A stretch of DNA of 64,000 nt from Ruminiclostridium josui JCM 17888 (GTDB taxonomy: Bacteria > Bacillota > Clostridia > Acetivibrionales > DSM-1351), in assembly GCF_000526495.1 (NCBI RefSeq), contig NZ_JAGE01000001.1, positions 2,290,001 through 2,354,000 of the forward strand. The letters run 5' to 3'. The notes below the pieces were generated by a model. The model was not told the DNA's origin, did no database searches, and saw only the letters and a list, made by a program, of their open reading frames with translations. Position numbers and translations under genes: made by a program. This document shows positions 40,868 through 64,000 of this stretch, in pieces. Every line of letters starts with the position of its first letter. Within the stretch, counting starts at the first letter, position 1.

Positions 40868-42100
40868 ATGTTAAGAAAAGTATTTTTATTTCCGGGACAA
40901 GGGTCACAATACGTAGGTATGGGAGAAAAGCTATGCAAACGTTCTGAAATTGCATCAAAAACATTTGATGAAGCAAGTGAAATACTGAATTTCGATTTGA
41001 AAAAATTATGTTTCAATGGGGAGCTTACCGAACTTACAAAAACTGAAAATCTTCAGCCCGCAATATTGACTATGAGTGTTGCTTCATTCAGAGCCTTTAC
41101 TGAGCAATTTGGAGCAAGGGCAGATTATATGGCAGGACACAGCTTGGGAGAAATATCAGCCTTGACGTGTGCTGGAGCAATAGCTTTTGAAGATGCAGTA
41201 AAAATAGCCCGTCTAAGAGGAAAGTTCATGCAGGAGGCCGTTGCCGAAAATGTTGGTGCAATGGCTGCAATTCGTAATATAGACAAAGAGTCAATTGAGT
41301 TAACGTGCAAACAGGTTGCAGGAGATAAAGATTCAGTCTCTGTTTCCAACTATAATTCCAGAAATCAAATTGTAGTATCCGGCTATAAGGAAGATGTGCT
41401 GAAGGTAACTGAAATCCTGACTAATATGGGCGCCGAAGCCAAAATGCTTCAAGTAAGTGCACCATTTCATTGTCCACTAATGCAGCCGGCTGCAGATAAG
41501 TTTAAGACTGAACTGGAGAAATACACATTTAAAGATGTGAGATATAAAGTCATTTCTAATGTTACTGCTCGACCTTATGAAGGAAAGGAATCAATTATAG
41601 AAAATCTTGTAAAGCAGATTGTAAGCCCTGTTCAATGGATTGAGTCCATGTTATACCTACGTAGAAAAACAGTTGAATTAGGGATTGAATTAGGGGCAGG
41701 AAGTGTACTTAAAAATCTGATGCTATACAATACACCTTCTATTCGTGTATTTACATATGACAATGATAATGATATTAAGACTTTGGGAGAGATAGATTTA
41801 ACTAGTAAATACCCATTTTTCTCTAGAGCTATGGGTATAGCTGTGGCAACTCCTAATAAAAATTGGGATAATGAAGAATACCAAAAAGGCGTGGTTGAGC
41901 CATACAGAGTAATACAAAAACTCAATGAAAAAGCCGAAAATGAAAATTCAGAGATATCAATTGAAGATATGAAGAAAGCTGTTGATATGTTATTGATGAT
42001 TCTTAAGACCAAAGGTACATCTGAGGATGAAATCAAAGCAAGAATGGAGCAATTTTTCTGGGATACGGACACAATGGATATGTTCTGTAAGGCTGAGTAA
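40868..42100 (+). CDS. Discrete malonyl-type acyltransferase (trans-AT)
   Basis: This 410-residue protein should load malonyl units from CoA onto the ACPs of the AT-less PKSs next door. It has FPGQGSQYVGMG at the N-terminus, the catalytic Ser92 in GHSLGE, and the catalytic His201 in SAPFHCPLM. After the AT domain (to about 295) comes an extension including MGIAVATPNKNWDNEEYQKG (from 322) and a helical tail. The same extension appears in the degenerate AT at 51798. The ATG follows AAAGGATAGGAT. It is the first gene of the biosynthetic operon. Confidence 0.92.
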   Translation: MLRKVFLFPGQGSQYVGMGEKLCKRSEIASKTFDEASEILNFDLKKLCFNGELTELTKTENLQPAILTMSVASFRAFTEQFGARADYMAGHSLGEISALTCAGAIAFEDAVKIARLRGKFMQEAVAENVGAMAAIRNIDKESIELTCKQVAGDKDSVSVSNYNSRNQIVVSGYKEDVLKVTEILTNMGAEAKMLQVSAPFHCPLMQPAADKFKTELEKYTFKDVRYKVISNVTARPYEGKESIIENLVKQIVSPVQWIESMLYLRRKTVELGIELGAGSVLKNLMLYNTPSIRVFTYDNDNDIKTLGEIDLTSKYPFFSRAMGIAVATPNKNWDNEEYQKGVVEPYRVIQKLNEKAENENSEISIEDMKKAVDMLLMILKTKGTSEDEIKARMEQFFWDTDTMDMFCKAE

Positions 42101-42193: not shown

Positions 42194-45100
42194 ATGAATT
42201 TAAATGTGGATATGGAAGATTTTATATCAGCTATTAATAGTCAAAATAAATTGGTCCAACAAAAACCCATTTCAACAAATGATATAGCAATAATAGGAAT
42301 TAGTGCAAAAATTGGTAGTGCTGAAGATGTTAATGAATTCTGGGATTGTATATGTAATGGATACGACTTAATAGATACCTTTCCGCCAGACAGGCAGAGA
42401 GATATTGATAGGTATCTTAAGACATGTTTTGGAAAAGAAAGTAGCAGTTTCATTGAGATGGCGTATTTGAAAAATGTGGATTTGTTTGATGCTGGACTGT
42501 TTAATATGACTCCTGTGGAGGCAGAATTAATGGATCCGGTACAAAGGATATTTCTTGAGTGTATGCTGGTAGCTGCCGAAGATGCGGGTTATGGCGGCAA
42601 TAGATTATTCGGATCAAAGACTGGAGTCTATGTTGGCTGCAACAGTAATACAAATGATAATTACTTTTCTATGATATCAGCGCTTTCGCCTTCAAAAATG
42701 GGCTTGGCATTAGCGGGGAATTTAAATTCAGTAGTAGCAAGCAGATTCAGCTATTTATTCAATTTAAGAGGCCCCGCAGAAGTGATAGATACTGCGTGCT
42801 CATCTTCATTAGTGGCAGTACATACCGCTTGTCAAGCTCTCAGAAGTGGTGAAGTTGATATGGCTTTTGCCGGAGGAATAAAAATCGGTTTGATTCCGAG
42901 GACTGTAAGCAATGAAAATGACATAGGAATCACATCTTCTACGGGAAGAACAAAGACCTTTGATGATGAGGCTGATGGAACCGGAGCCGGAGAAGGAGCA
43001 GGAGTAGTTCTTTTAAAGCCATTGTACAAGGCGATAGAAGATGGTGATAATATACATGCAGTAATAAAAGGGACTGCAACAAATCAGGACGGAGCCTCTG
43101 TAGGCATTACCGCTCCTAATTCACAGGCTCAGACAGATGTGTTGCTGGCAGCATGGGAGGATGCAAAAATAAATCCTCTAACCCTTCAATATATAGAAGC
43201 ACATGGAACAGCTACTAATCTGGGAGATCCAATAGAGATTGAATCAATTACCAGGGCCTTTCAAAGATATACAGATAGAACCCAATTTTGTGCTATTGGA
43301 TCAGTAAAAACAAATGTAGGGCATCTTGATTGTGCAGCAGGTATTGCAGGCCTCATTAATGGGGTTATGATGCTTAAAAATAGGAAAATACCGCCTAATA
43401 TTCATTTTAAGAGCGGAAATCGTAAGATAGACTTTATCAATTCACCTGTTTACATAAATGATAAACTTGATAACTGGGAAAGATGCCAGACACCTAGAAG
43501 ATGCGGCGTGAGTTCTTTTGGTATAAGCGGCACAAATTGTCACATGGTGCTGGAAGAAGCTCCTGCTGTAATAGAAAGTGAGAAAGAAAGTAATTACCAT
43601 ATTTTAACAATATCTGCAAAGAATAGAAATACAGTTGATAAAATATTAAATAAATATTGCCAATGGGTGAATAGAAATAAGGAAATCTCTTTAAGAGATT
43701 TATGCTATACGACAAACGTAGGAAGAGGACACTATAATTGCCGTATGGCCCTTGTAATCAACAATGTGGGCGACTTAAAACCAGAAAGAGCATTTACATA
43801 TTACGGGGAATTTCAAATTAGTACCAATGGTGAACCACATAATCACGAAGGAAGTATAACTATTCAGCAAAAGGCTGAGTATACTAAAAAGGCTAAAGAA
43901 ATTGTTAATAACTTAATTTCTGAAAAATCTCAGCAAAAGAAGAAAATATTATTACAGGATTTGGCCTTGCTTTATGTATCGGGTGCAGATGTTGAATGGG
44001 ATATATTATACAAAGAGCAATGCTGTAAAATATTAAGCATTCCCACCTATCCCTTTGATCATAAGCGATATTGGATAAGTGCTGAAAAGCGTGCTGCAGT
44101 GGTTAGTTCCACATCAAAAAAAGAGTATGAAAAAAGAATTCACCCTCTTTTGGATCAATGTCTCGTTGATTCAATGGATATTGTAGTTTTTTCAAAAAAT
44201 GTACATGTAGATAATTGCTGGGAACTTAAGGAACATGTCATTGGAAGAAACCATGTCTTGCCTGGTACCGCATTTGTGGAAATGATACATAAGGCGGGAA
44301 GCAAGTATTTTAAGACAAATAGTATTGAAATAGATGATTTGATGTTCTTAATGCCTTTTTCATGTAATGAAGGAGAGCAAAGAAAAATACAGGTTATAGG
44401 AAAGAATGCAAATGATTGTATCGAGATAGGAATTGTCAGTGCTGACGTAAATGAAATTGAAAAAACATGGATTAGCCATGTAACGGCGAAAGTGAGAAAA
44501 ATTTCTCCTAATGTTGTCCGCAAGTTTGACATAGCTGAAATTATCAAAAGATGTCCGGAGACTTTAGATGTATATTCAAAAGGACATTCGCAAAATGGAC
44601 ATGTTGCTGTTACAGACAGATGGAAAACTAACAGGATGGTTCATTTTAATGAGACCGAATTGATTGCAAAATTTGAACTGTCAAAAGAGTACCATGAAGA
44701 ATTAAATGACTATTATTTATATCCTCCCTTATTAGATGGCGCAGTTAATATTGGTAATATATTTACAAAAAGTGGGTTTTGCCTCCCTCTGTCATATGGT
44801 AACGCAAAGTTTTACAAGCCGCTGCCAGGGGAATTTTACAGCTATCTAAAAGTAAAAAATTTAAAAAACAGCGATGAAATTACAATATTTGATATTTGCA
44901 TAATATCAAATGAAGGTGAGATTATTGCTGAGATTTTTGATTATATTTTAAAAGAGGTAGATGAGAGGGAGATGAGCAGAGTTAAAGGAGAAATGCTTTA
45001 CTCAGTAAAGTGGATTGAAAGTCAAAGAATAGAAACTGCTGATAGTAGTTTGTTTGCCGATAAATCCATATTAATGATTAGAAGAGAAAACCAGCAGGAT

Positions 45101-46900
45101 AACAGGATTTATAAGCAAATAAAAACCTTGAATGCAAAAGCTATAATTGATGTAGCTATCTCGGATGAGTACAAGAAGCTCAGTACTGACAGTTATAAAA
45201 TAAGGTGCTGCGAAGAGGATTTTGGAGAAGTATTTGATTCTTTTTCGGATAGACACATTGACTATGTATTCCACATTGCATCATTGGAAGAAAATAATGA
45301 AGATACACTTGAGAATCTCCAACACAGTATTGATATGGGGATGAAAAGTACTTTTGTTTTCTTGCAGAGTATTGCTAAGCATCAGGTCAAAGTAAAAAAT
45401 ATTATGGCGTGTATAGATAATTCAATTACCATAAGTGGTAATGAAGAAGAAATAAAGCCTATGAATAGAGCATTATCAGGAATGCTTAAGTCAGCTTCCA
45501 GAGAATTTGATAATATCCAATTCAAAATTATTGATATTGATAAACAAACGGATAGCAGTGTGGTATTGGATGAAGTACTACACGGTGAAGATATGGTTTT
45601 GTCAGCATACAGGAGAAATTCCAGGTTTATTGAAGCCTTTTCTGAGCTTGTTCAAAGTGAACGAAGGGAAATTTCAATCAAAAATGATGGAGTATACATA
45701 ATTACCGGAGGCCTTGGCGGTGTTGGTCTTGTTATTGCAAAGCAGTTGGCTGAAATGAATAGAAACGTAAAGATAGCACTTCTAAACAGAAGCAAGGCTC
45801 CACAAGAAGTACTTTCAGAAAAAGATGGCAGGACTATTGGCTCTCTTGAGGAGATTTATGAAATTACAGGAGATAAAAATTTACTGGAAATCATATCCGT
45901 GGATATTGCCGACATTGAAAGTCTGAACCGTGAAATATCCTTACTAAGAGAAAAGTATGGAAAAATTAATGGTGTAATTCATTGTGCAGGTGTTGCCGGA
46001 AAAGGATTTTTGTTGAGAAAAACATGGGATGAGTTTGAAAATGTTTTAAGACCAAAGATATATGGTACATGGATGGTAGACAAGGTTACTGAAAGTGATG
46101 AGCTTGACTTCTTTATCATGTGCTCATCCATTTCATCTATTTTCACATCAAGCGGCCAGAGCGATTATTCAGCAGCCAATTCTTATATAGACAGCTTTGC
46201 AGAACTAAGAAGTAAAAGGAATAAGAACACTCTGGCAATAAATTGGACAGGCTGGAAAGAAACCGGTATGGCAGTAGATTACAAGGTTGATCAGGGGGAA
46301 AGCTTATTCAAATTTATTGATAATGCAAGGGGACAGGAAGCTTTTGAATTTGCTCTGGGCTCCACACAACAGAGAATTATTATTGGTGAGCCCAACTACG
46401 AAATGATTCAAAATAGCAGAAACTTTCTAGATGATTTAATTATTTTTTCAGATAGCATTGAGAACAAGCTAAGGCAATATCAAAATTTGAGTAATGAAGA
46501 AGATGATCAAGGGGAAATAAAAATAAGCGTTACAGGTAAAAGCAGCGGTGATATAACACCTACCGAATATCAGGTTGCAAAGGCGGTAGCTAAAACACTC
46601 AAATTTGAAGAAGTTAATATATATGATAAATTCTTTGAAATGGGTGGGGATTCTTTACTGGCAGCTTCCTTTAAAAAGGAGCTAGACAAATTATTTCCTA
46701 ATGTAGTTGATATTACAGATGTGTTTACGTATGTATCCGTTTACGAAATGTCCAAATATATTGACAGTAAAATAAATAAACCAGGACCAGAGGTAACGGA
46801 AAATAATAAAGTTCAGACGGATGATGAGTTAAGAGATTTATTAATGAAACTCAACTCCGGCTCCATTGATATTGAAGAAGCGGAGAAAAGGCTGCTATAA
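42194..46900 (+). CDS. Trans-AT polyketide synthase, KS-DH-KR-ACP
   Basis: This 1568-residue module has no AT domain. KS (about 27-460): Cys202 in DTACSSSL, His337 in EAHGTAT, His377 in TNVGHLD, all intact. A KS-to-DH linker with the post-KS motif IPTYPFDHKRYW follows. DH (about 655-940): His681 in HVIGRNHVLPG and Asp848 in PPLLDGAVN. KR (about 1165-1400): TGGLGGVGLVIA and Tyr1325 in SGQSDYSAANSY. ACP: Ser1487 in MGGDSLLA. The C-terminus KLNSGSIDIEEAEKRLL looks like a docking segment. One round would add a C2 unit and leave a double bond. The ATG follows GGGAGAGGAAAAAATATCT. Confidence 0.92.
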   Translation: MNLNVDMEDFISAINSQNKLVQQKPISTNDIAIIGISAKIGSAEDVNEFWDCICNGYDLIDTFPPDRQRDIDRYLKTCFGKESSSFIEMAYLKNVDLFDAGLFNMTPVEAELMDPVQRIFLECMLVAAEDAGYGGNRLFGSKTGVYVGCNSNTNDNYFSMISALSPSKMGLALAGNLNSVVASRFSYLFNLRGPAEVIDTACSSSLVAVHTACQALRSGEVDMAFAGGIKIGLIPRTVSNENDIGITSSTGRTKTFDDEADGTGAGEGAGVVLLKPLYKAIEDGDNIHAVIKGTATNQDGASVGITAPNSQAQTDVLLAAWEDAKINPLTLQYIEAHGTATNLGDPIEIESITRAFQRYTDRTQFCAIGSVKTNVGHLDCAAGIAGLINGVMMLKNRKIPPNIHFKSGNRKIDFINSPVYINDKLDNWERCQTPRRCGVSSFGISGTNCHMVLEEAPAVIESEKESNYHILTISAKNRNTVDKILNKYCQWVNRNKEISLRDLCYTTNVGRGHYNCRMALVINNVGDLKPERAFTYYGEFQISTNGEPHNHEGSITIQQKAEYTKKAKEIVNNLISEKSQQKKKILLQDLALLYVSGADVEWDILYKEQCCKILSIPTYPFDHKRYWISAEKRAAVVSSTSKKEYEKRIHPLLDQCLVDSMDIVVFSKNVHVDNCWELKEHVIGRNHVLPGTAFVEMIHKAGSKYFKTNSIEIDDLMFLMPFSCNEGEQRKIQVIGKNANDCIEIGIVSADVNEIEKTWISHVTAKVRKISPNVVRKFDIAEIIKRCPETLDVYSKGHSQNGHVAVTDRWKTNRMVHFNETELIAKFELSKEYHEELNDYYLYPPLLDGAVNIGNIFTKSGFCLPLSYGNAKFYKPLPGEFYSYLKVKNLKNSDEITIFDICIISNEGEIIAEIFDYILKEVDEREMSRVKGEMLYSVKWIESQRIETADSSLFADKSILMIRRENQQDNRIYKQIKTLNAKAIIDVAISDEYKKLSTDSYKIRCCEEDFGEVFDSFSDRHIDYVFHIASLEENNEDTLENLQHSIDMGMKSTFVFLQSIAKHQVKVKNIMACIDNSITISGNEEEIKPMNRALSGMLKSASREFDNIQFKIIDIDKQTDSSVVLDEVLHGEDMVLSAYRRNSRFIEAFSELVQSERREISIKNDGVYIITGGLGGVGLVIAKQLAEMNRNVKIALLNRSKAPQEVLSEKDGRTIGSLEEIYEITGDKNLLEIISVDIADIESLNREISLLREKYGKINGVIHCAGVAGKGFLLRKTWDEFENVLRPKIYGTWMVDKVTESDELDFFIMCSSISSIFTSSGQSDYSAANSYIDSFAELRSKRNKNTLAINWTGWKETGMAVDYKVDQGESLFKFIDNARGQEAFEFALGSTQQRIIIGEPNYEMIQNSRNFLDDLIIFSDSIENKLRQYQNLSNEEDDQGEIKISVTGKSSGDITPTEYQVAKAVAKTLKFEEVNIYDKFFEMGGDSLLAASFKKELDKLFPNVVDITDVFTYVSVYEMSKYIDSKINKPGPEVTENNKVQTDDELRDLLMKLNSGSIDIEEAEKRLL

Positions 46901-46918: not shown

Positions 46919-49900
46919 ATGAGTAATTTAAAAAAGTACATTTTAGAGCAGGTCGGAAGTAAAAAATTGTCCCAAGATGATGCTTTTAAAATGTTAAAAG
47001 AACTCCAGGAGAGCAATTATGCAAAGGATGAAATAGCTATAATTGGTATGGCTTGCAAGCTTCCAGAGGCAGAAAGTCCACAGGAATTCTGGAATAACCT
47101 TATAAGTGAGTATAGGTGTTTTATTCCAATGCCTTCTGAAAGGCACGATTTTTATGACCCATTTAGAAATCCTCATTACGCTGAATTTTTAGGAATGAAA
47201 GCCATACCAAGACGAACAGAAACAGAGGATACCAGTCTTGTTTCTGTAATTACTGATATTGATAAGTTTGATGCTGCTTTTTTTGGAATTCCTCCCAGAG
47301 AGGCAAAATATATTCACCCGGGACAAAGAATATTTCTGCAAACTGCATGGTCTGCCATTGAAGATGCCGGTTATGGAGTAGATACCATACAGGGCAGTAA
47401 CACAGGTGTGTTTGTGGGTGAAGACCATAATAATACACTTTTATACAAATATATAACAGAACCTGACCAGATGCATTTGACTGGGTCATGGGAAGGAATA
47501 ATGGCAAGCCGAATAAATTACATATTTAACTTAAGGGGACCTGCTATGGTTTTGGATACAGCATGTTCTTCAGGTTTGGTTGCTATTCATGAGGCAAGTA
47601 ATGCATTAAAGAACCATGATTGTGAAATGGCTATTGCCGGTGGTATTTCGTTGGGTGGCGGAACAACAGGAACCGGACCTGACGATGAAGATGCCACAGA
47701 AGATGCATTAACTGCAGTTGCATCTGATGACGTTGTAAGAGCTTTTGACAAAAAGTGCTCAGGAACTGTTTTCGGAGAAGGATGTATAGCAATTGTATTA
47801 AAGCTCTTAAAAAATGCTATAAAAGACGGGGATAATATATATGGTGTAATAAAAGGAAGCGCTCTGAATAATGATGGGGCTTCTAACGGTATTACAGCAC
47901 CAAATCCTGTTGCCCAAGAAGATGTAATAAAAGAGGCATGGAGTCAGGCGAACATTAATCCCGAGACAATTCAATATGTGGAGGCTCATGGAACAGGTAC
48001 TCTATTGGGAGATCCTATTGAGGTAAAAGGTCTTACTAATGCTTTTCAAAAATTTACCAATAAAAAGCAATTCTGCGGTCTGGGTTCATTAAAGACTAAT
48101 ATGGGGCATATGGTTGGAGCATCAGGATGTGCGGGTGTAATGAAAGTAGTATTAAGCCTACAAAACAATGTTATTCCTGCAAGCATGTATTTTGAGGAAC
48201 CAAATCCACACATTAATTTTGTTGAATCACCTATGTTTGTTGTAGACAAACCTATGCCATGGAAGAAAGGGGACTTGCCAAGAAGGGCTGGAGTCAGCTC
48301 CTTTGGGTTCAGTGGAACAAATGCACATGCAATCATTGAAGAAGCTCCTGCATTGGAAAAAAGAGATGATATAAAAGACGGAAAGCTTAATGTTATTACC
48401 CTTTCAGCAAAAAGCGATACAGCTATAAACAATCTTGTTAAACGGTATCAGAAATTTTTGAGTGACAAGACAGAACTTGATATTAAAGATGCCTGCTATA
48501 CAGCCAATACAGGTAGAGGGCATTATGAATACAGGATTATAATGCTGATTGATGATTTAAATTCATTAAAAGAAAAAATTGATATTTTAGCAGAACGGGG
48601 AATAGCTACTTATGCTGAAGAAAACATCTTTTTTGGTCAGCATAAAATTGTATCGGATAAAAGACAATCCTTGCAGGATAATGAAATCAAAGAAGGAAGT
48701 CTACGGGCATTAAATACTGAAGTTGAGCAAATGATGTCAGAGTTATTGAAGGCTGATAAAGATTCCTATAACAGTATGCTTCAAAAAATGTGTACATATT
48801 ATGTACAGGGTGCCAACATAGACTGGAAAAAGTTGCACTCAGGCAGAAAGAACCGCAGAGTAAGTCTGCCTACATATCCTTTCGACAAAACACATTATTG
48901 GGCTGACGTAAAGAAAACGAAAATTACAGGCAGTGTTCAAACAGAAAACAATGAAAAACTGCATTACCTTATCGACGAACTTGTTATCTCCTCAATGAAC
49001 GAGGATATATACCGTGTTAAGTTGTCTCCTGAAACTCACTGGGTATTGAAAGAACATGTTATCCTTGGAAACAGCACTGTTCCTGGAACAGCATACATAG
49101 AGATTGCCAGGGCTATCGGAGAAATTTATTTTAATACTGATGAACTGGAAATCAATAATTTTATTTTTCTGACTCCGCTGGTAGTACCAAATGGTACACA
49201 AGTGGAACCCCAGATTATAGTTTCCAAAAAGGATGAGCAAATTCAGATTACAGTAGCTAGCAAGGTTAAGGATGAGAAAAGCGGTGTTGAAAGATGGGTT
49301 ACACATGCAAAAGGTGAAATAACACAGCACAAAAAGAGCACAGCGGAAATCCTTGACTTTACAGGTGTTATAAGTTCCAAAGAAGCTCAGGAATCACCTA
49401 CTAATCTTCCTGCTCTTAATGCACAAGGGTTGATGGGACTTGGAGATAGATGGGACAATGTACTCAAAACATACAGACACAAGAATGTGGCAGTGAGTGA
49501 AATAAAATTGTCTGACAAATATGCAGAGGATTTAAAGGGATTCAAATACCATACAAGTGTGCTGGATATGGCGGTTAACAGACCGGTTCAGGAATTTACT
49601 ACCGGAATGTATTTGCCTTATTATTACAAGAAGTTCACTATGTATGCACCTCTGCCTGCACATGTATTTAGTAAGGCTACCCTTTTGGATAAGAACACCC
49701 ATAATGACGAAACAAAAACATATGATGTTGTTATATCTGATACAAACGGAAAAATTGTAGCCGAAATAGAAGGTTATGTTGTTAAAAAGGTAAATGCACT
49801 TAATGATTACGTAGCAAATTCATTCTATGGAATAGATTGGGTGGAAACTGACAGTGACATTAATTTGAGAGATACCGGAAAACAAGTTCTATTATTCAAA

Positions 49901-51760
49901 GGAAACAGTGATTTATCCCAAAAGGTTGAAGCTAAACTTAGAGAGAGTGCACAAAACCTTGTTACTGTTGAGTTTGGCAATGAGTTCAAGAAAGTAAATG
50001 CAAACCAATACATAGTTGGAGAGCAGGAAGAAGATTACGATATGCTTATGAAGGAGTTATCTTCTGATGGTATTACTGACATAATTCATATGGGAACTGT
50101 AGATTTTGACATTTCGGACAGTAAAATTGAGGACTACCAAATGGCTCAGAACAACAGTATCTATAGTCTGCTGTTTACTTCGAGAACTATGCTTAAAAAC
50201 AAAATAAGTGGAGAGATAAATTTTGTTTTAGTTACTGATAATGCTCAAGAGGTTAACGGTAGTGAAAAGACTATTAAACCGCTGAATGCTGCATTTATAT
50301 CACTGGCCAAAACAATTGTTATGGAATACCCGAATATCAAGATTAGAAGTATAGATATAGATGAAAGCACTGATATTGAATTGGTCTACAAAGAAATCCA
50401 CAATGCTGAATATCGCCTGAGAACTGCTTACAGAAATAACATAAGATATAGAGAATGCCTTGTAAAGAGGGACGTTAACAGCTCGGAAGAATCAGTAACT
50501 GGAATCAAAATCAAGAATCAGGGAGCATATTTAATTACTGGAGGCACAGGCGGTCTTGGCTTGGAAGTTGCCAGATATCTGGCTATGAAAAATAAAACAA
50601 ATATTTGTCTTGTATCAAGAAAGGAGCTTCCTTCTAGAGATACCTGGAGTAATATATTGCAAGAAGCTTCGGATAAAAAACTATGCAAGATAATAAGCAA
50701 AATCCAAGAGATAGAAGAACAAGGATCTGTTGTTTCAACATATAGCTCCGATACAAGTGATAAATCTAAAATGGAGGAAATCTCCAAAGACATAATAAAG
50801 AAATTTGGGAAAATAAACGGTATTTTCCATTGTGCAGGTATTGCAGGAGATGGCTTCTTGTTCAATAAAAAAGTGGAAGTATTCTCTAATGTATTAAATC
50901 CTAAAATAGCTGGAACAAAGGTTCTAGAGCATATAACCGAAGGTCAGGATCTGGATTTCCTAATCTTGTTCTCCTCTATGACTACGTTTTTCAGCGCCCC
51001 CGGCCAAGGTGACTACACGGTAGCAAATGCATATCTTGATGCATATGCCCAATACAGAAACAAAATGGGCAAGAGGACCTTTGCTATTAATTGGTCTGGT
51101 TGGAGTGAAACTGGTATGGCAGTTGATTACAACATAGCAAATGCAGTTACGTTGTTTAAATCAATTCCTACCAATAGAGCACTTTCTGCATTGGATACAA
51201 TAATCAACACTGGTATTTCAAATGTAATTCCAGGAGAAATTGATTACGATATTCTGGCATCGTTGGTAGATGCTATGCCAATGCTGTTATCCGAAGAATT
51301 TACCAAGGCATTATCTAGAAGAAAGAAAAACAGTGAGGTTAAGACTGGCAAGGCGACTTCTTATGAATCCCTGCAATCAAGAGAAATAGTTATACTTGGA
51401 AAGCCCACTGACGAGCTCACTGAGTCTGAAATCAAACTGGCACAAATATACTCAGCTGTATTGGAACTTAACGAGATTGATATTTATGACAGCTTCAATG
51501 CAATGGGCGGTGATTCTATTATTGCAACAGAAGTATTCAAAATATTAAATCACTATTATCCAGGGTTATTAGAGGTTTCAGATATGTTTGTTTATCCAAC
51601 AGTTGCTGAGATGGCGGAATACGTGGATAGCAAACTGCTTAGTAGCGGACCTTCAGTATTGGAGCAGAATGAAAATGTGGATGACATGCTGGAGAAATTT
51701 GAAGAGGGAGAAATCGAAGTAGAAGATATGATTCAATTCTTTGAATCAGAGGATGAGTAA
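46919..51760 (+). CDS. Trans-AT polyketide synthase, KS-DH-KR-ACP
   Basis: This 1613-residue module is built like the preceding one. It opens with a short helical docking segment (LKKYILEQVGSKKLSQDDA). KS: Cys216 in DTACSSGL, His357 in EAHGTGT, His397 in NMGHMVG. The linker ends in LPTYPFDKTHYW. DH: His713 in HVILGNSTVPG and Asp883 in SVLDMAVN. KR: TGGTGGLGLEVA (about 1200) and Tyr1366 in GQGDYTVANAY. ACP: Ser1533 in MGGDSIIA. The acidic C-terminus (LEKFEEGEIEVEDMIQFF) could dock onto the next protein. The ATG is 18 bases after the previous stop, behind CGGGAGGAG. Confidence 0.92.
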   Translation: MSNLKKYILEQVGSKKLSQDDAFKMLKELQESNYAKDEIAIIGMACKLPEAESPQEFWNNLISEYRCFIPMPSERHDFYDPFRNPHYAEFLGMKAIPRRTETEDTSLVSVITDIDKFDAAFFGIPPREAKYIHPGQRIFLQTAWSAIEDAGYGVDTIQGSNTGVFVGEDHNNTLLYKYITEPDQMHLTGSWEGIMASRINYIFNLRGPAMVLDTACSSGLVAIHEASNALKNHDCEMAIAGGISLGGGTTGTGPDDEDATEDALTAVASDDVVRAFDKKCSGTVFGEGCIAIVLKLLKNAIKDGDNIYGVIKGSALNNDGASNGITAPNPVAQEDVIKEAWSQANINPETIQYVEAHGTGTLLGDPIEVKGLTNAFQKFTNKKQFCGLGSLKTNMGHMVGASGCAGVMKVVLSLQNNVIPASMYFEEPNPHINFVESPMFVVDKPMPWKKGDLPRRAGVSSFGFSGTNAHAIIEEAPALEKRDDIKDGKLNVITLSAKSDTAINNLVKRYQKFLSDKTELDIKDACYTANTGRGHYEYRIIMLIDDLNSLKEKIDILAERGIATYAEENIFFGQHKIVSDKRQSLQDNEIKEGSLRALNTEVEQMMSELLKADKDSYNSMLQKMCTYYVQGANIDWKKLHSGRKNRRVSLPTYPFDKTHYWADVKKTKITGSVQTENNEKLHYLIDELVISSMNEDIYRVKLSPETHWVLKEHVILGNSTVPGTAYIEIARAIGEIYFNTDELEINNFIFLTPLVVPNGTQVEPQIIVSKKDEQIQITVASKVKDEKSGVERWVTHAKGEITQHKKSTAEILDFTGVISSKEAQESPTNLPALNAQGLMGLGDRWDNVLKTYRHKNVAVSEIKLSDKYAEDLKGFKYHTSVLDMAVNRPVQEFTTGMYLPYYYKKFTMYAPLPAHVFSKATLLDKNTHNDETKTYDVVISDTNGKIVAEIEGYVVKKVNALNDYVANSFYGIDWVETDSDINLRDTGKQVLLFKGNSDLSQKVEAKLRESAQNLVTVEFGNEFKKVNANQYIVGEQEEDYDMLMKELSSDGITDIIHMGTVDFDISDSKIEDYQMAQNNSIYSLLFTSRTMLKNKISGEINFVLVTDNAQEVNGSEKTIKPLNAAFISLAKTIVMEYPNIKIRSIDIDESTDIELVYKEIHNAEYRLRTAYRNNIRYRECLVKRDVNSSEESVTGIKIKNQGAYLITGGTGGLGLEVARYLAMKNKTNICLVSRKELPSRDTWSNILQEASDKKLCKIISKIQEIEEQGSVVSTYSSDTSDKSKMEEISKDIIKKFGKINGIFHCAGIAGDGFLFNKKVEVFSNVLNPKIAGTKVLEHITEGQDLDFLILFSSMTTFFSAPGQGDYTVANAYLDAYAQYRNKMGKRTFAINWSGWSETGMAVDYNIANAVTLFKSIPTNRALSALDTIINTGISNVIPGEIDYDILASLVDAMPMLLSEEFTKALSRRKKNSEVKTGKATSYESLQSREIVILGKPTDELTESEIKLAQIYSAVLELNEIDIYDSFNAMGGDSIIATEVFKILNHYYPGLLEVSDMFVYPTVAEMAEYVDSKLLSSGPSVLEQNENVDDMLEKFEEGEIEVEDMIQFFESEDE

Positions 51761-51797: not shown

Positions 51798-52760
51798 ATG
51801 GAAAAACTAGGAGTTATTTTTCCGGGAACGGCATCGTTTTACGCCGGAATGGGAAAAGAATTGTATATAAATTACCCCATTGCAATGGAAACATACAGGG
51901 AAATAGAATCGCTTACCGGGTGCAATTTAACCGACAGGCTCTTTGACAGTTACTGCTGTGAAGGGTTTACATTAAAGGAAAAGAGACTATCTCTGTTAGC
52001 TGCTGAGATCATAGGTTTCAAGTTATGGCAGGAGAAATATAGAATTTGCCCTGAATGTTTTGTTGCAGAGGGTTTGGGGATTGTTCCGGCACTGGTATGT
52101 GCCGGAGCAATCACTATAAATGATGCTGTATGCATTATTCAGAATACATGTAATGTGGAAAAATTTATATTCAAAAACCCAGAATATCCAATACTTTGTA
52201 AAGCTAATGGATACAAAGAGTTTAAAAAGGAAGATATTCCATGCATCGTAAAAAAGAGTTTAGATTTCGAAAGTTTGAATATAAAAGAGTGTACGACTGT
52301 ATTAGTAAATCGACAAATAGATTGTTTATTGGAAATAGGACCTGATAACCGTTTATTTAAAGAATTCAGTGTTATGCCCCAAAAAATTATTTATGGTTAC
52401 TTTGATACAATGAAGGACCGTAACTATACACTTGAGAATATGGGCTTCAGAAAATTCTTCAATATGAAGTATGTTATTATGAGGCTGCTTGGTATAGCTG
52501 CATCAACACAGAACTTCAATACAGACTATTCAAGTTATGAGGCGGAAGTAGTAATAAATTACGGAAAACTCAAGGATTTATGCGGCAGGCTTGAAAATAC
52601 CGGAGTTGAAGTATCGAAGGAAGATGTTTGTGAAGCTGTAAAGTTGTTAAATAGTATTCTAGTGTATAAGCAGGTACCAGCGGAAGAAATAGAGGAACGT
52701 TATAGAATGCTTACTGAAGAAACGCTAATTTGTATCAATGATTATATTGATATGAATTAA
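51798..52760 (+). CDS. Degenerate acyltransferase homologue (pseudo-AT)
   Basis: This 320-residue protein aligns with the active AT of the same cluster over its first 100 and last 90 residues. It begins with FPGTASFYAGMGKELY where the active enzyme has FPGQGSQYVGMGEKLC. At the active site GHSLGE is replaced by AEGLGI, so Ser92 is Gly92 and the neighbouring His is Glu. About 90 residues are missing, including the region of the catalytic His. The shared extension is kept (LGIAASTQNFNTDYSSYEAE, from 231). The frame is intact with a good ribosome site (AGGAAGGAAAACCT). It cannot be a normal transacylase. A structural, gatekeeping or partner role is likely. Confidence 0.8.
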   Translation: MEKLGVIFPGTASFYAGMGKELYINYPIAMETYREIESLTGCNLTDRLFDSYCCEGFTLKEKRLSLLAAEIIGFKLWQEKYRICPECFVAEGLGIVPALVCAGAITINDAVCIIQNTCNVEKFIFKNPEYPILCKANGYKEFKKEDIPCIVKKSLDFESLNIKECTTVLVNRQIDCLLEIGPDNRLFKEFSVMPQKIIYGYFDTMKDRNYTLENMGFRKFFNMKYVIMRLLGIAASTQNFNTDYSSYEAEVVINYGKLKDLCGRLENTGVEVSKEDVCEAVKLLNSILVYKQVPAEEIEERYRMLTEETLICINDYIDMN

Positions 52761-52777
52761 TAACTCAGGAGAATATT

Positions 52778-54688
52778 ATGATTGACGAGAAGAAATTAAG
52801 TAAGTACATATTAAATGAATTGAAAAACGGAAATATAACAAAGGGAACAGCTATAGAACTGGTAAAGCAGATAAACTATACAGATCCTCAGGACAGTGAA
52901 GTAGCTGTGGTAGGGATTGGCTGCAGATTTAGAGAGGCTGATGATTATGAATCTTTTTGGAATTTAATTGTAAATAAGAGAACTGCAGTGGATAGATGTG
53001 CTAAAAAAAGGGTTCATTCAATGGAAAAAATCCTGCCAGAAGGGATTATGGATGATGTTACAACCCATAGTAAAGGCTCCTATATCAATAACCTATTTGA
53101 TTTTGATTATCAGCTATTTGATCTTACCTTTGAAAATGCAATGATAATGGCTCCCAGTCAAAGGATTATGCTAGAGGTTGCATATAGAACTCTTGAAGAT
53201 GCAGGCTATCTGGGTGAAAGATTAGAAGAAAATATGACAGGAGTTTATATAGGCAATAATTTTACCTCGGAATTATTGATTTCACACGCTTCCATAGTTG
53301 CACAAGCTGGAGTCGGGGGATTTGAGTCCATTATGTACAATTGGTCCAGCGGTTTGGCCACAAGGATATCAAAGCAATTTGACCTGAAAGGACCATCTTA
53401 TGTCATTGATTTAAGTTGTGCTTCTTCTTCACTTGCCATATTTAATGCGTATAAGGCAATATTGGACAAGCAATGTGACTCGGCAATTGCAGGTGGGATA
53501 AATATAATTCTGAAACCCAATATCCGTATACCGGGAACCGATGATAAGATTTTCGAACACGGAAATGATGTTATTCAAAGAGATTATGATGATAATCCGG
53601 GTGGCGTTTACCACGGTGAGGCGGCAGCAGCACTTTTCTTGAAACCGTTAAAAAAGGCTATTGCAGATGGAGACAGGATTCATGCTGTACTTAAAGGTGG
53701 GAGCATTAACAATAATGGAAAAGAGTGTGATTTTAACGGCAGTAGCGTCGCTGCAATTAAAAATGTTTTACTCAGTGCGGTTAAAAAAACAGGAATCAAT
53801 ATTGAAGATGTTGGTTGCTTTGATGGGGAAGGCTCTTCTGACAGACATGAGGAAATGATACAGACCACCGGACTGAGTGAGGGAATTAAGATGCTTACTA
53901 ATAAGAGGCAATATTGTGCAATAGGAAGTGTACCACCCAATATAGGGTATATACAGGCTGCAATGGGAGCTTTCTGCGCTATTAAGGGTATTTTGTCTAT
54001 GAAGCATAATATAATCCCACCTGTATACCACTTTATTAAACCAACTTCTTTGCTTAATTTTGCTAGTACTCCCTTTTATGTGAATGATTTTCCTGTTAAA
54101 TGGGAAAAACGTCCTGATACTAAACGATATTCAGGCATATATTCATTTGGATACGGTGGAAATAATATAGTTACATTTTTCCAGGAAGCACCGGAATCTG
54201 AAATATTAGAAGAATCCCATGAAGATGAATTATTTATTTTGACAGCTAAATCAGACTATTCCTTCAATAAAAATATTGATTCTTATATTGAGTTTTTAAA
54301 AGCAGAAACAAATAACCGCATAGTTGATATTTGCTATACTGCAAGTGTGGGTAGAGCTATTTACCTAAACTACAGGCTAGCAATAGTTGCAAACAGTTGT
54401 GAGGATTTGTATTTAAAACTAAAGGCTTTTAAAGAAGGAAAGATTCTTGATAAAGTTTATTACCAGTGTAATGAACAAGCTAATACAAGGTCAGCAAGAC
54501 CAGATATGAGATTTGAATCTTTACTTAAAGATAGAGATTTAGATATTTTGGCCAAGGAATTTTGTAAGGGAAGTAATATGAGTTTCAGTAAATTATACGA
54601 AACAAAAAAAGTTAGGATATGTACCTTGCCCAATTATGCTTTTGATAGAAAAAGATGCTGCATACTTGACCAATATAAGAAAAAATAA
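52778..54688 (+). CDS. Stand-alone degenerate ketosynthase (KS without both His)
   Basis: This 636-residue protein has an N-terminal docking-like segment (KKLSKYILNELKNGNITKG), a complete KS fold and the post-KS linker ending LPNYAFDRKRCC, with no other domain. The acyl-binding Cys214 is kept in LSCASSSLA, but the two histidines needed for decarboxylative condensation are gone: HGTGT is GEGSS (Glu351) and KTNIGH is PPNIGY (Tyr391, with the Lys also lost). It should still be able to hold an acyl chain but not condense it. Non-elongating KS domains are known in trans-AT systems. Here the protein is free-standing and next to a pseudo-AT. The ATG follows CTCAGGAGAATATT. Confidence 0.85.
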   Translation: MIDEKKLSKYILNELKNGNITKGTAIELVKQINYTDPQDSEVAVVGIGCRFREADDYESFWNLIVNKRTAVDRCAKKRVHSMEKILPEGIMDDVTTHSKGSYINNLFDFDYQLFDLTFENAMIMAPSQRIMLEVAYRTLEDAGYLGERLEENMTGVYIGNNFTSELLISHASIVAQAGVGGFESIMYNWSSGLATRISKQFDLKGPSYVIDLSCASSSLAIFNAYKAILDKQCDSAIAGGINIILKPNIRIPGTDDKIFEHGNDVIQRDYDDNPGGVYHGEAAAALFLKPLKKAIADGDRIHAVLKGGSINNNGKECDFNGSSVAAIKNVLLSAVKKTGINIEDVGCFDGEGSSDRHEEMIQTTGLSEGIKMLTNKRQYCAIGSVPPNIGYIQAAMGAFCAIKGILSMKHNIIPPVYHFIKPTSLLNFASTPFYVNDFPVKWEKRPDTKRYSGIYSFGYGGNNIVTFFQEAPESEILEESHEDELFILTAKSDYSFNKNIDSYIEFLKAETNNRIVDICYTASVGRAIYLNYRLAIVANSCEDLYLKLKAFKEGKILDKVYYQCNEQANTRSARPDMRFESLLKDRDLDILAKEFCKGSNMSFSKLYETKKVRICTLPNYAFDRKRCCILDQYKKK

Positions 54689-54744: not shown

Positions 54745-54773
54745 TTGACATATATTTCATATAATAATATAAT
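54745..54773 (+). promoter_or_regulatory. Strong sigma-A promoter of the padR operon
   Basis: A perfect TTGACA (54745-54750), a 17-base spacer and a perfect TATAAT (54768-54773) lie 112 bases before the PadR gene. A palindromic operator begins five bases after the -10. Confidence 0.88.
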
Positions 54774-57142: not shown

Positions 57143-58270
57143 ATGAATACATTACATATTGCTTATTATACGATAAAAAGAATCATGCTTGATAAAAGAA
57201 CCAATATTATGAAAATATTAATTCCGATTGTTGCTATAGTAATATTGGGTGTGGCATTAAAAAGCTCTTTTGAGCTATCAAGCATGGACATTATAAAGGT
57301 TGGGTATCTAAATCTTGATAATGGAAAACAGGGAGAGAACCTTGTAAAAATCTTAAAAGAGGATAAATCTATTAAAGAACTTATCAGTCTTGTTCCGGTT
57401 GATTCGGTTGACAAAGCCGAGCAAATGATTTCTGACGACAAAATTTCATCCTTCATATTTATTGATAAAGATTATACGAAGCAAATAGAAAGTGGTGAGA
57501 AATCAAGTGTTACAATATACTCCAGCAAATATTCCGACTATAAACTGACAGTGGTACAGAACATTATGGATTCTTATGTCAATATTGTTAACACAAATAT
57601 AGCGGTTGCTATGGTAACGGGTAAACCTGCAGAATACGATTCTTCTTCCAGTATTAATGAAATACCAATTTCCATAGACGGTAACAGACCAAAGGCTATT
57701 GACTATTATGCAGTCACGATACTTGTTCTGTCCCTGTTGTCAGGTGCAGCATTTGGATGTGAGCTGGTGGGAGAAGATTACATAGGAGTAATGGGAAAGA
57801 GAATAAAAAGTACTCCAGTTAGTCCTGTTCAACAATATGCAGGAAAGATGATTGGAGCATGTCTTTCAAACTTTGCGCAGGGACTTGTAATGGTCTTGTT
57901 TACTAAATTTGTTTTAAAGGCTAATTGGGGAAGCAATATATTCTTAATATTGGCTTTCACATTACTAGTGGCAGTATTTGCTACAGCGATAGGTGCTATG
58001 CTATGCATAATTTTCAATGATGTAAACCGGGCTGGGGCTTTATCAAGTCTGCTTGTTCCCATATTTACATTTATTGCAGGAGGGTATATAAAAATTGATT
58101 TTGGACCTATTAAATACCTTTCACCAAACCAATGGGCACATACTGCGTTTTTCAATACCATTTACAATGGGGATCAGCATCTGGTAGTAACCAATGTTCT
58201 TGCACTGCTTATAGCTACCGTTGTTATTTCGACTGTTTCTATTATATTGGCAAGGAGGAGAACAAATTGA
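57143..58270 (+). CDS. ABC-2 type exporter permease, first subunit
   Basis: This 375-residue protein has one N-terminal membrane segment (LIPIVAIVILGVALK), an extracytoplasmic domain of about 140 residues, and five C-terminal membrane segments, the usual ABC-2 (DrrB/YhaP-like) layout. The ATG follows TTGGAGGAGAGCA. Its stop codon overlaps the TTG start of the second permease, so the two are coupled and probably form a heterodimer. Confidence 0.9.
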   Translation: MNTLHIAYYTIKRIMLDKRTNIMKILIPIVAIVILGVALKSSFELSSMDIIKVGYLNLDNGKQGENLVKILKEDKSIKELISLVPVDSVDKAEQMISDDKISSFIFIDKDYTKQIESGEKSSVTIYSSKYSDYKLTVVQNIMDSYVNIVNTNIAVAMVTGKPAEYDSSSSINEIPISIDGNRPKAIDYYAVTILVLSLLSGAAFGCELVGEDYIGVMGKRIKSTPVSPVQQYAGKMIGACLSNFAQGLVMVLFTKFVLKANWGSNIFLILAFTLLVAVFATAIGAMLCIIFNDVNRAGALSSLLVPIFTFIAGGYIKIDFGPIKYLSPNQWAHTAFFNTIYNGDQHLVVTNVLALLIATVVISTVSIILARRRTN

Positions 58271-59385
58271 CAGTATTATTAAGTAATATAAGACGTATTT
58301 TCAAAAAGAAATTGAATTTTCTTTTTATGTTGGTTATACCGGTTCTTTTAACTGTTATAGTTGTGGTTGGTTCAACAGGTAATGCGGTATATAAAGTGAC
58401 TTTGGTGGATAATGACAATACAAAACTGACTCAGTTGTTTTTAGATTTTTTGAAGGATAAAAGTGATAATATTAAGCTGGTAGACTTCAAAGAAGACGAA
58501 ATAAAAAATGCAGTGATAAATTCCAAAATTGATTGTGGAATTGTAATAAATAAAGACTTCACTAACAATGTCATAAGTGGAAAAGATGATAATGTAGATT
58601 TTTACATGCTGGAAGGAACTAACGCAAATGAACCTATAAAGCTGTCAATAAGCAGTTTCTTCAGTGCGGCCAAGACAATAAGCAAATCTGTAAATCAAGA
58701 TGAAAATCTATTCTATCAATCTATGGATAAATATATCAATGGGTCATTGAAACTAGACAACAAGAAATTTGACGGGGAAGCAGAAAACAGTGAGAGAAAG
58801 TCATTATCAATAGGATTTTTTGCAATGGGTCTGATGCTACTTATGATGTCAGCTACAACATTGATAATGAAGGATAAGGAATATAAGACCTTTACAAGAA
58901 TTATGACAACTCCTGTTTCAGCTAGGAGTTATTTCCTCCAGAATATCATTAGCTTTGCACTTGTGGCCTTTATCCAAATTGTAGTGGTACTGTACATATT
59001 ATGGAAAGGGTATAACATGGATTTTGGAGAGGTGTTCCCACAATTAATTTTATTATCCATGTTGTTTGCGCTTACCTGCGTTTCTATAGGAATAATAATC
59101 TCAAGATATGCAAAAAAGTCATCCCATGTAAATGCAACAGTTACTTTATTGACTATGCCAATGCTTATGTTGGGGGGCTGTCTGTGGCCATTTGATTTCA
59201 TGCCAGAATCACTACAGAGGATAGGGCAATTGTTACCTACCAGATGGTATATGTTGGCTACAACAAAAATATTTGAGGGAAAGAGTATAGCTGATTGTGC
59301 TCTACAGATAGGATTAATGCTTGTCTTTACCCTTGTAATGTTCATATTGACTTTCTTCCGAAAGGTTGATTTGGCAAAGTCCTGA
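58267..59385 (+). CDS. ABC-2 type exporter permease, second subunit
   Basis: This 372-residue protein has the same layout as the preceding subunit: membrane segment FLFMLVIPVLLTVIVVVGST, an outer domain, then membrane segments such as SIGFFAMGLMLLMMSATTLI. The TTG start at 58267 overlaps the upstream stop codon and follows AAGGAGGAGAACAAA. The open frame that extends back to 58132 is the shadow of the first permease. Confidence 0.9.
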   Translation: MTVLLSNIRRIFKKKLNFLFMLVIPVLLTVIVVVGSTGNAVYKVTLVDNDNTKLTQLFLDFLKDKSDNIKLVDFKEDEIKNAVINSKIDCGIVINKDFTNNVISGKDDNVDFYMLEGTNANEPIKLSISSFFSAAKTISKSVNQDENLFYQSMDKYINGSLKLDNKKFDGEAENSERKSLSIGFFAMGLMLLMMSATTLIMKDKEYKTFTRIMTTPVSARSYFLQNIISFALVAFIQIVVVLYILWKGYNMDFGEVFPQLILLSMLFALTCVSIGIIISRYAKKSSHVNATVTLLTMPMLMLGGCLWPFDFMPESLQRIGQLLPTRWYMLATTKIFEGKSIADCALQIGLMLVFTLVMFILTFFRKVDLAKS

Positions 59386-59440
59386 TTCACTGACTAATTA
59401 TATAGTGCCCGTAAGTATTGTATTAATAGAGGAGCGTTAT

Positions 59441-62017: not shown

Positions 62018-62147
62018 TGGAACTAAATTTGCCAGTTTAGAAATCAAAGATTAGGAGTACTTGAAAATGTTTTTATTTTATAGACAGTAGCAAATGAAGG
62101 AGATTTGTAAAATAGATTAATTGTACAAAAGGAGTTTGGAAGAAATA

Positions 62148-64000
62148 ATGGAAGAAAACAAACGTTATGAAGACAAGATTCCTATGGTCAATTATCGCGG
62201 TAAAGATAAATTTACATTAAATAATTTATCTTGTGATGATATCATGATTCCCGAATGTGAAGATAAGAAATTTTACGCTATTTTGCCGGCTCAGCAAAGA
62301 CTATATATGGTTGCTCAGATAGATGAGACAGGCATTGCATATAATTTGCCTTGTGTGTATGAAATCAAAGGTATTCTTGAAAGAGAGAGATTTGAAAAAG
62401 CAGTAAAGAAGCTTGTGGAACGTCATGAAATTCTCAGGACAAGCTTTTCAATGGTAAATGGAGAACCAGTACAGAATATTTCGGAAGATGCCCATGTAGA
62501 TTTGGAGTTTGTAGATGCTCAAAAAGAAGATATTGATGAAATACTTAAAGATTTTGTAAGGCCTTTTGATTTAAGTAGGGCTCCACTTATGAGAGTTATG
62601 GTAATAAATACGGGTGATGGTTTAAGTCTCCTTTTACTAGACATCCATCATATTATTACAGATGGAATAAGCATGAATGTACTGCTTAGTGAGCTGTCAT
62701 GCCTGTATGGCAACGGTACCCTTCCAGAACTGAGAGTGCAGTTCAAGGATTACTGTGAATGGTTAAAAACAGGGGATACTACAGCCCAGGGAGAATATTG
62801 GAAAGGAATGTTTTCAGATGAAGTTCCTGTTCTAAATATGCCCTTGGATTATAGGAGACCATCGGTACAGAGCTTCAGAGGCGGGGCTGTGGCAGCTAGC
62901 ATACAAGGAGAGTTAGCTGCGGATATTGAGAAAATCCAACGTAAGACAGAGACAACAGATTACATGATATTTATGAGTGCACTAATGATCCTACTGTCAA
63001 AATATTCAGGACAGGAGGATATAGTCATAGGCAGCCCTATGTCTGGAAGAACTCACAAAGACACTCAAAATATTCCTGGTATGTTTGTAAATACATTGGC
63101 ATTCCGAGGAAAGCCAGAAAAAGCAAAAAGATATTCCGAGTTCTTGAAAGAGATAAAGGAAATATGCCTGAATGGATATGAAAATCAGGACTACCCATTT
63201 GAAAAGCTAGTAGAAGCAGTGAATGTAAACAGGGAATCATCCAGGAATCCCTTGTTTGACATAATGTTTGTTTTGCAAAATTATGACTATGGTGTCGGAA
63301 GCTTTGACACAATGGAAATGCAGGAACTTGACAAGTGTGAATGGCACAGGTCGGCAAGGTTTGATTTATCAGTAATTATTACCAAACAACGTGACGGATA
63401 CAAGATTGTTTTGGAGTATTGTAAAGACTTATACACAGAAGAAACAGCAGAACTTCTGAAAAATCACTATATCAACCTTGTGAAGGAAATAGCTTCAGAT
63501 TGTGAACAGCTCATAGGCAAAATTGAAGTTCTGGATGAGAATGAAAAGAAGAGAATCCTATATGACTTCAATAAAACAGAAATGGATTTTCCAAAGGACA
63601 AGGTCATGGCAGAGTTGTTTGAGGAGATGGTGGAAAGCTCCCCAGACAATTTGGCGGTAGTATTCGGAGAAGAAAAGGTTATATATAGAGAATTAAACAG
63701 AAGGGCAAATTGCCTTGCAAACAGGCTCCGTAATATGGGAATAGGGAAAAATGATTTTGTGGCGATTATGACGGAGCGCAGTGTGGAGATGGTTGCGGGT
63801 ATTCTGGGCATAATAAAATCAGGAGCGGCCTATGTGCCTGTTGACCCAGGCTATCCAAGAGACAGAATAGAGTACATGATATCTGATAGCAGTCCCAAGG
63901 CAATACTTGTGTACAACACAGAAATTGAAACAGAGCTTCCTGTAATAGACTTACAGGATAAAACTATCTGGGAAGGCGATGGACAAAACCCGAAAATTGT
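62148..64000 (+). CDS. Non-ribosomal peptide synthetase, C-A... (continues beyond window)
   Basis: The frame is open from the ATG at 62148 (after AAAGGAGTTTGGAAGAAATA) to the window end, at least 617 residues. A condensation domain (about 45-470) begins at ILPAQQRLYMVAQID and has the active-site motif HHIITDG (His167, His168, Asp172), plus SPMSGRTHKDTQNIPGMFVN. An adenylation domain starts near 484 (VIYRELNRRANCLANRL, then GAAYVPVDPGYPRDRI), but its substrate-pocket residues and any carrier domain lie outside. Starting with C fits capture of an acyl chain from an upstream ACP. Confidence 0.95.
   Translation, partial: MEENKRYEDKIPMVNYRGKDKFTLNNLSCDDIMIPECEDKKFYAILPAQQRLYMVAQIDETGIAYNLPCVYEIKGILERERFEKAVKKLVERHEILRTSFSMVNGEPVQNISEDAHVDLEFVDAQKEDIDEILKDFVRPFDLSRAPLMRVMVINTGDGLSLLLLDIHHIITDGISMNVLLSELSCLYGNGTLPELRVQFKDYCEWLKTGDTTAQGEYWKGMFSDEVPVLNMPLDYRRPSVQSFRGGAVAASIQGELAADIEKIQRKTETTDYMIFMSALMILLSKYSGQEDIVIGSPMSGRTHKDTQNIPGMFVNTLAFRGKPEKAKRYSEFLKEIKEICLNGYENQDYPFEKLVEAVNVNRESSRNPLFDIMFVLQNYDYGVGSFDTMEMQELDKCEWHRSARFDLSVIITKQRDGYKIVLEYCKDLYTEETAELLKNHYINLVKEIASDCEQLIGKIEVLDENEKKRILYDFNKTEMDFPKDKVMAELFEEMVESSPDNLAVVFGEEKVIYRELNRRANCLANRLRNMGIGKNDFVAIMTERSVEMVAGILGIIKSGAAYVPVDPGYPRDRIEYMISDSSPKAILVYNTEIETELPVIDLQDKTIWEGDGQNPKI

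Follow-up and report, generated by a model that had tools for sequence, protein, structure and literature searches.

Two catalytically degenerate proteins, one acyltransferase-like and one ketosynthase-like, encoded side by side after the trans-AT polyketide synthase genes of Ruminiclostridium josui

What use could a polyketide cluster make of an acyltransferase (AT) without its nucleophile and a ketosynthase (KS) without its condensation histidines? The question is raised by two adjacent genes of Ruminiclostridium josui JCM 17888, called psAT and psKS here, which lie between the polyketide synthase (PKS) genes and the nonribosomal peptide synthetase (NRPS) genes of a trans-AT cluster. The whole stretch of DNA analysed, referred to as the window, comprises 64,000 nucleotides of a 4.47 Mb genome. 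An earlier note on this DNA had described the pair as lying directly downstream of the PKS genes, and both open frames are indeed found there (Table 1). The pair probably helps to hand the growing chain to the NRPS part. The literature searched, as titles and abstract openings with few subscription papers among them, contains no report of a psAT-psKS pair.

The gene pair and its cluster

The genes are arranged in the order AT1, PKS1, PKS2, psAT and psKS, followed by the gene of a putative PadR-like regulator, ABC transporter genes, a B12-radical-SAM gene and NRPS1. The stop of psAT and the start of psKS are separated by 17 bases, and the two would be the final genes of the PKS operon. A promoter-like site past psKS (54745-54773) matched at 12 of 12 positions, in a scan that returned 12 promoter-like sites overall, fewer than its shuffles (mean 17.8), and no terminator-like site. 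Between 34 and 64 kb of the window, the only carriers found were those of PKS1 and PKS2. NRPS1 is followed by a second NRPS, in which C, A and carrier domains account for seven matched stretches each (four and three in the two pieces scanned). As acceptor of the chain we propose the C domain that comes first in NRPS1.

Table 1. Features of the cluster around psAT and psKS (positions in the window)
Feature	Position	Strand	Remarks
AT1	40868..42100	+	trans-acting AT, motifs intact, with C-terminal extension
PKS1, KS-DH-KR-ACP	42194..46900	+	KS motifs intact
PKS2, docking-KS-DH-KR-ACP	46919..51760	+	intact KS motifs; Ser1533 in the ACP; psKS is proposed to dock on the C-terminal tail
psAT, 320 aa, catalytically dead AT-like protein	51798..52760	+	Ser92 replaced by Gly; deletion of about 100 residues; C-terminal extension kept
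psAT C-terminal part, residues 203-320	52404..52757	+	homologue of the extension found in PKS-linked trans-ATs (model without psAT, E 8.4e-17)
psKS, 636 aa, condensation-dead KS-like protein	52778..54688	+	Cys214, Glu351, Tyr391
psKS N-terminal docking helix pair, residues 1-39	52778..52894	+	match to docking model; longest identical stretch in three species
NRPS1 start	62121..64000	+	open frame from TTG 62121, continuing past the window end into L009

Several other features of the cluster were recorded. The B12-binding radical SAM protein (59366-62017) carries a DUF7005 domain. For the second ABC permease (58132-59385), the start was probably predicted too far upstream; the copy in a related genome, G006, has a stop in that part. 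NRPS1 (62121-64000 and L009:1-6744) contains two near-identical C domains (98.6% over 417 aa), as if a module had recently been duplicated or converted. A 144-aa open frame (L009:7040-7474), 84.7% identical in another related genome, G007, looks like the C-terminal part of a truncated type II thioesterase. For C. papyrosolvens DSM 2782, PMC3250452 gives trans-AT PKS/NRPS clusters by KS count; its sections 5 and 6 do not discuss inactive KSs, and the present cluster could be matched to none of the names used there. The same source reports silent PKS genes in clostridia, and this cluster may be silent as well.

Residues lost and kept in psAT and psKS

The active site of psAT is gone. The comparison set consisted of AT1 and 13 other loci (15 further AT loci were tried, of which L004 and L020 had no usable frame) and includes L017, a short FabD-like protein of 316 aa without the extension. 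In this alignment with 14 other ATs, the motif GHSLGE reads (A/T/V)EGLGI in psAT, so that Ser92 is Gly, as the earlier note had recognised in calling the AT devoid of its nucleophile, and His91 is Glu; Gln11 is Thr. About 100 residues are missing, corresponding to the stretch of AT1 that bears Arg117, Asn163-Ser164 and His201. We take Ser92 to be the nucleophile and His91, Gln11, Arg117 and His201 to be the other catalytic residues. psAT retains 15 of the 51 columns invariant in the comparison ATs and lacks the Ser-His dyad and Arg by which a trans-acting malonyl-ACP acyltransferase is recognised. It is a homologue of the FabD/AT family by sequence, the NCBIfam model fabD TIGR00128 matching residues 3-116 only (E 1.9e-14, far under the curated cut-off), and Pfam gave no match at E 0.01. 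The AlphaFold2 model of psAT (pLDDT 52.4, alignment of three rows) was too poor to use.

The C-terminal extension tells of its ancestry. A profile of 11 extension sequences, psAT excluded, finds psAT in all three genomes that carry it (E 8.4e-17, 3.6e-16 and 3.9e-16), which places psAT in the lineage of extension-bearing trans-ATs. The extension of AT1 (41762-42097) is a conserved domain of PKS-linked trans-ATs in these Clostridia; the profile gave 30 matches in 13 of 391 genomes drawn from the class, Pfam gave no match for the extension in AT1, and a PDB search gave no significant one (best E 0.11). In the genome G005 a free-standing 111-aa extension gene without an AT core (L055:7194-7529) has a start codon that follows immediately on the stop codon upstream and sits just upstream of a KS-DH-KR-ACP gene, the place of an AT in the other clusters read; the extension can therefore exist without an AT. 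Three AT homologues elsewhere (L086, L087 and L089) have FPGVGS instead of FPGQGS, and the nucleophile pattern gave no AGHSLGE-like match in them. We considered the extension as the conserved working part of psAT. This is countered by its being the fastest-changing part of the protein, with 75% identity for residues 203-320 and 89-90% for the core (residues 1-115) when the window is compared with either of the other two genomes.

psKS has lost less. Pfam recognises ketoacyl-synt (E 1.3e-45), the C-terminal half (4e-14), the KS-to-AT linker and the post-AT linker, and no ACP. In an alignment with 12 other KSs, one of which (L051) is itself a non-elongating KS (KS0) by motif (first His to Asn), the motif region is gapless and Cys214 is in register, DTACSS reading DLSCASS. 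Both catalytic histidines are replaced, the first by Glu351 (EAHGTGT to DGEGSSD) and the second by Tyr391 (KTNxGH to PPNxGY). Cys214, Glu351 and Tyr391 are identical in three of three orthologs, and 50 of the 78 columns invariant in the comparison KSs are kept. The earlier note's KS without condensation residues thus stands for the two histidines and falls for the cysteine, and a psKS with no catalytic residue left is ruled out by Cys214. Between the window and the other two genomes, identity is complete in the N-terminal docking part of 37 residues, 90-92% in the KS part and 83-84% in the linker region. The AlphaFold2 model of psKS (pLDDT 37.6, alignment of four rows) was too poor to use. To judge from sequence, psKS is built like the KSs of trans-AT systems and bears a docking helix pair. 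The earlier comparison with a KS-AT didomain stripped of both activities does not hold for either protein: the AT is of trans-AT lineage with its own C-terminal domain, the order is AT then KS, and psKS has trans-AT KS architecture together with a docking domain.

The N-terminus of psKS fits the four-helix docking class, and docking is predicted for it. This class of trans-AT PKSs, formed by two double-helix pairs, has an N-terminal helix-turn-helix of about 25 residues (PMC9113145). The first 40 residues of psKS scored 22.0 bits, reached by none of 5000 shuffles, with a model of seven N-termini of one sub-class that includes the KS0 of genome G249 described below and was picked after a first model, of the other sub-class, had missed psKS. 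With a model of all 14 N-termini psKS scored 15.6 bits, again reached by none of 5000 shuffles. PKS1, psAT and AT1 gave shuffle-like scores with both N-terminal models, and the N-terminus of NRPS1 showed no docking domain of this class (score shuffle-like or unreported). Residues 1-39 of psKS are also the longest unchanged run across the three species (chance 0.0044 if the 80 variable sites were random). The C-terminal tail of PKS2 scored 11.1 bits with the C-terminal docking model, third behind PKS1 and one of 2000 shuffles, which lends weak support to PKS2 as the putative docking partner.

Conservation and ancestry of the pair

Both genes are kept in a narrow range of hosts. Full-length psAT was found in three of 11 genomes of the family, all of one genus (100, 82 and 82% identity), and psKS in the same three among 58 genomes of the order (100, 90 and 89%); the two genes are adjacent in both genomes besides that of the window. 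A psKS scan of a collection of 84,980 species genomes, at a level that reports close relatives only, gave one locus, in Ruminiclostridium papyrosolvens C7 (L031). In the 391-genome class draw, psKS was matched at E 1e-97 or better in the same three genomes and in G249 (36%) and G003 (35%), and psAT in the same three genomes only, together with the ordinary AT of one of them; with the best three (psKS) or five (psAT) candidates per genome scored in the class and phylum draws, the class draw held no further orthologs of either gene. At E 1e-98 or better, the draw of 398 genomes from the phylum gave no match beyond the genome of the window itself, G006 and G007 presumably not being among those drawn, and 11 records of the plasmid collection included none at 60% identity or more. 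Both genes occur in all three searched genomes that have either. The earlier note had named independent occurrence as a result against its idea, and none was seen, although co-occurrence in three close relatives is weak as a check. Other cluster genes tested are conserved too, NRPS1 with 88% in G007; the G006 contig ends short of NRPS1. The dGTPase-like gene that precedes the cluster upstream had no counterpart in the G006 and G007 stretches compared.

Selection has acted on both genes. Neither has a stop or frameshift in the three species. NG86 dN/dS in three species pairs was 0.095-0.129 for psKS, 0.169-0.286 for psAT and 0.019-0.134 for the other nine genes. Among 1000 random-mutation simulations per comparison, psAT stayed free of stops in 17 and 11 and psKS in three and none, and the observed amino-acid identities (psAT 0.816 and 0.819, psKS 0.898 and 0.893) were above every simulated one. 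Both genes are kept by purifying selection and are not in simple decay. The case is weaker for psAT, which is under the least constraint among the eleven genes computed. We rejected AT1 and the PKS2 KS as recently duplicated sources of the pair, the stems being 3.04 and 2.76 changes per site long.

The nearest parallel comes from G249, a genome of another family of the class, where an AT with extension, KS-DH-KR-ACP, docking-KS-DH-KR-ACP and docking-KS-ACP-C follow in order. Its last KS (L052:133-3921, minus strand) reads DTACSS and EANATGS, so that the Cys is kept and the first His is Asn. No second AT was found beside this KS0-ACP-C gene in L052 and L054, the contig ending 132 bases past the gene. 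In a tree of 30 KSs, PKS1 of the window and the first PKS of G249 fall in one nine-row group (83/97) and PKS2 pairs with the second PKS of G249 (94/70), because of which the two clusters plausibly share a plan. The G249 KS0 is the top non-ortholog of psKS in the class draw among the candidates scored (36%, 333.5 bits), and a PKS2-type KS of G027 with its histidines present, the nearest non-ortholog by score, ranks slightly above it (336.2 versus 333.5 bits; 334 versus 322). psKS itself is on a long branch and unplaced: p-AU was 0.325 with the G249 KS0, the sole KS0 in the set, 0.239 with PKS2-type KSs, neither grouping being rejected or shown, and 0.052, just short of rejection, with the PKS1 KS alone, and grouping with the PKS2 KS alone was rejected (0.008). 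We infer a KS0 origin of psKS from its position and motifs and not from the trees. The first C domain of NRPS1 is 98.6% and 42-50% identical to C domains of its own genome versus 37% to that of G249; because it is nearer to the former, no claim is made that psKS and NRPS1 arose by the splitting of a subunit like that of G249.

Possible functions and likeness to known systems

A reduced KS0 at the PKS-to-NRPS junction is the most likely identity of psKS, because of its position, motif and docking domain. psKS has the retained Cys and the lost elongation His of a KS0 and lacks two other features, the second His and an acceptor ACP in the same subunit. The second His is usually retained in KS0s and supports transacylation, and acylation of psKS may be impaired by its loss. 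An ordinary KS0 is disfavoured because the ACP and the second His are missing, which leaves gating or scaffolding as the function. In the explanation that we tentatively prefer, the helix pair at the N-terminus of psKS would dock on the tail at the C-terminus of PKS2, and psKS would receive or shield the finished acyl chain of the PKS2 ACP, whether on Cys214 or just at its own entrance; the chain would be left unextended and then offered to NRPS1 at its first C domain. As a dead relative of trans-ATs, psAT would be the non-catalytic partner of psKS, and it may sit where ATs dock on psKS or on PKS2 and so keep the active AT1 from reloading the last ACP. A role in the hand-over, which the earlier note had suggested, gains support by analogy from the KS0-ACP-C gene at the same place in G249; the function itself is a proposal.

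The closest competitor, possible and less probable than the reduced KS0, is a structural adaptor: the pair would carry no acyl chain and would cap the end of PKS2 or hold PKS and NRPS together. The loss of both histidines and the want of an acceptor ACP between 34 and 64 kb fit it well, as does the docking stretch being the most conserved part of psKS, and the free-standing extension of G005 is a parallel for non-catalytic AT parts; Cys214 and its neighbours, kept in three species, would however be needless for a pure scaffold. Slightly more doubtful still is a two-part junction device in which dead AT and dead KS dock on the last PKS, block reloading and elongation, and gate the chain without a carrier. 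If this were true, the AT extensions would be an independent adaptor module, also free-standing in G005.

That the genes are remnants on their way to loss is unlikely. The low constraint on psAT (dN/dS 0.17-0.29), its loss of a whole stretch of the fold and the putative truncated thioesterase further down the cluster would suit decay, yet the intact frames in three species, identities above all neutral simulations, a psKS dN/dS like that of its neighbours and stems that point to long persistence argue against it. No better placed is new chemistry, by which psKS, as a stand-alone enzyme of KS fold, would use a Cys-Glu-Tyr site to cyclise, release or transfer the chain. The kept Cys and the replacements fixed in three orthologs agree with this, and SalC of salinosporamide, a stand-alone KS acting as an aldolase/beta-lactone synthase according to the NaPDoS2 paper (PMC9582728), is among the PDB matches of psKS (7s2x, E 1.8e-47); 23 chains outrank it, however, modular PKS KSs among them, and a homologue with the same site was seen in none but the three genomes. 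The least probable is a chain-length-factor (CLF)-like partner of the PKS1 or PKS2 KS: a dead KS beside a live one is the logic of KS-CLF pairs, in which the CLF heterodimerises with the active KS, and the 50 KS-invariant residues kept make a KS-like dimer surface possible, but in CLFs the active-site Cys is replaced whereas psKS retains it, and its own docking domain suggests end-to-end docking.

For engineering, it is an open problem how a chain passes from PKS to NRPS and what non-elongating KSs do there. A small natural KS that is condensation-dead and carrier-free, has a docking domain and is conserved beside a dead AT would test whether the KS fold is able to gate or shield a chain when it performs no condensation, and the undescribed C-terminal domain of ATs, once found AT-free, is a second testable part.

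Among known systems, the KS0s of trans-AT PKSs, such as MmpE, are among the closest to the reduced KS0 proposed here. MmpE of mupirocin is presented in PMC7619045 as a docked KS0 with an essential Cys; psKS shares with this type the kept Cys, the lost condensation His, the N-terminal docking domain and the place after elongating modules, and differs in lacking also the second His and an ACP in the subunit. Hybrid KS0s typically follow an NRPS module, as a passage of PMC9582728 has it, whereas here the NRPS comes after psKS. The G249 KS0-ACP-C subunit has the same place after AT, PKS and PKS, the same docking sub-class and a Cys without the first His, but it keeps the second His, the ACP and the C domain, which psKS does not. 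psAT has the lineage and the extension of AT1 and its relatives, without the site Ser, His, Gln and Arg and about 100 residues. The acyl hydrolase PksD, as outlined in PMC11775670, is like psAT a stand-alone AT homologue with a C-terminal extension (residues 287-324); PksD is however an active hydrolase, whereas psAT lacks a nucleophile and its extension is longer. Compared with a cis-AT KS-AT didomain, both kinds of part are present, but here as separate genes, with the AT first and of trans-AT lineage.
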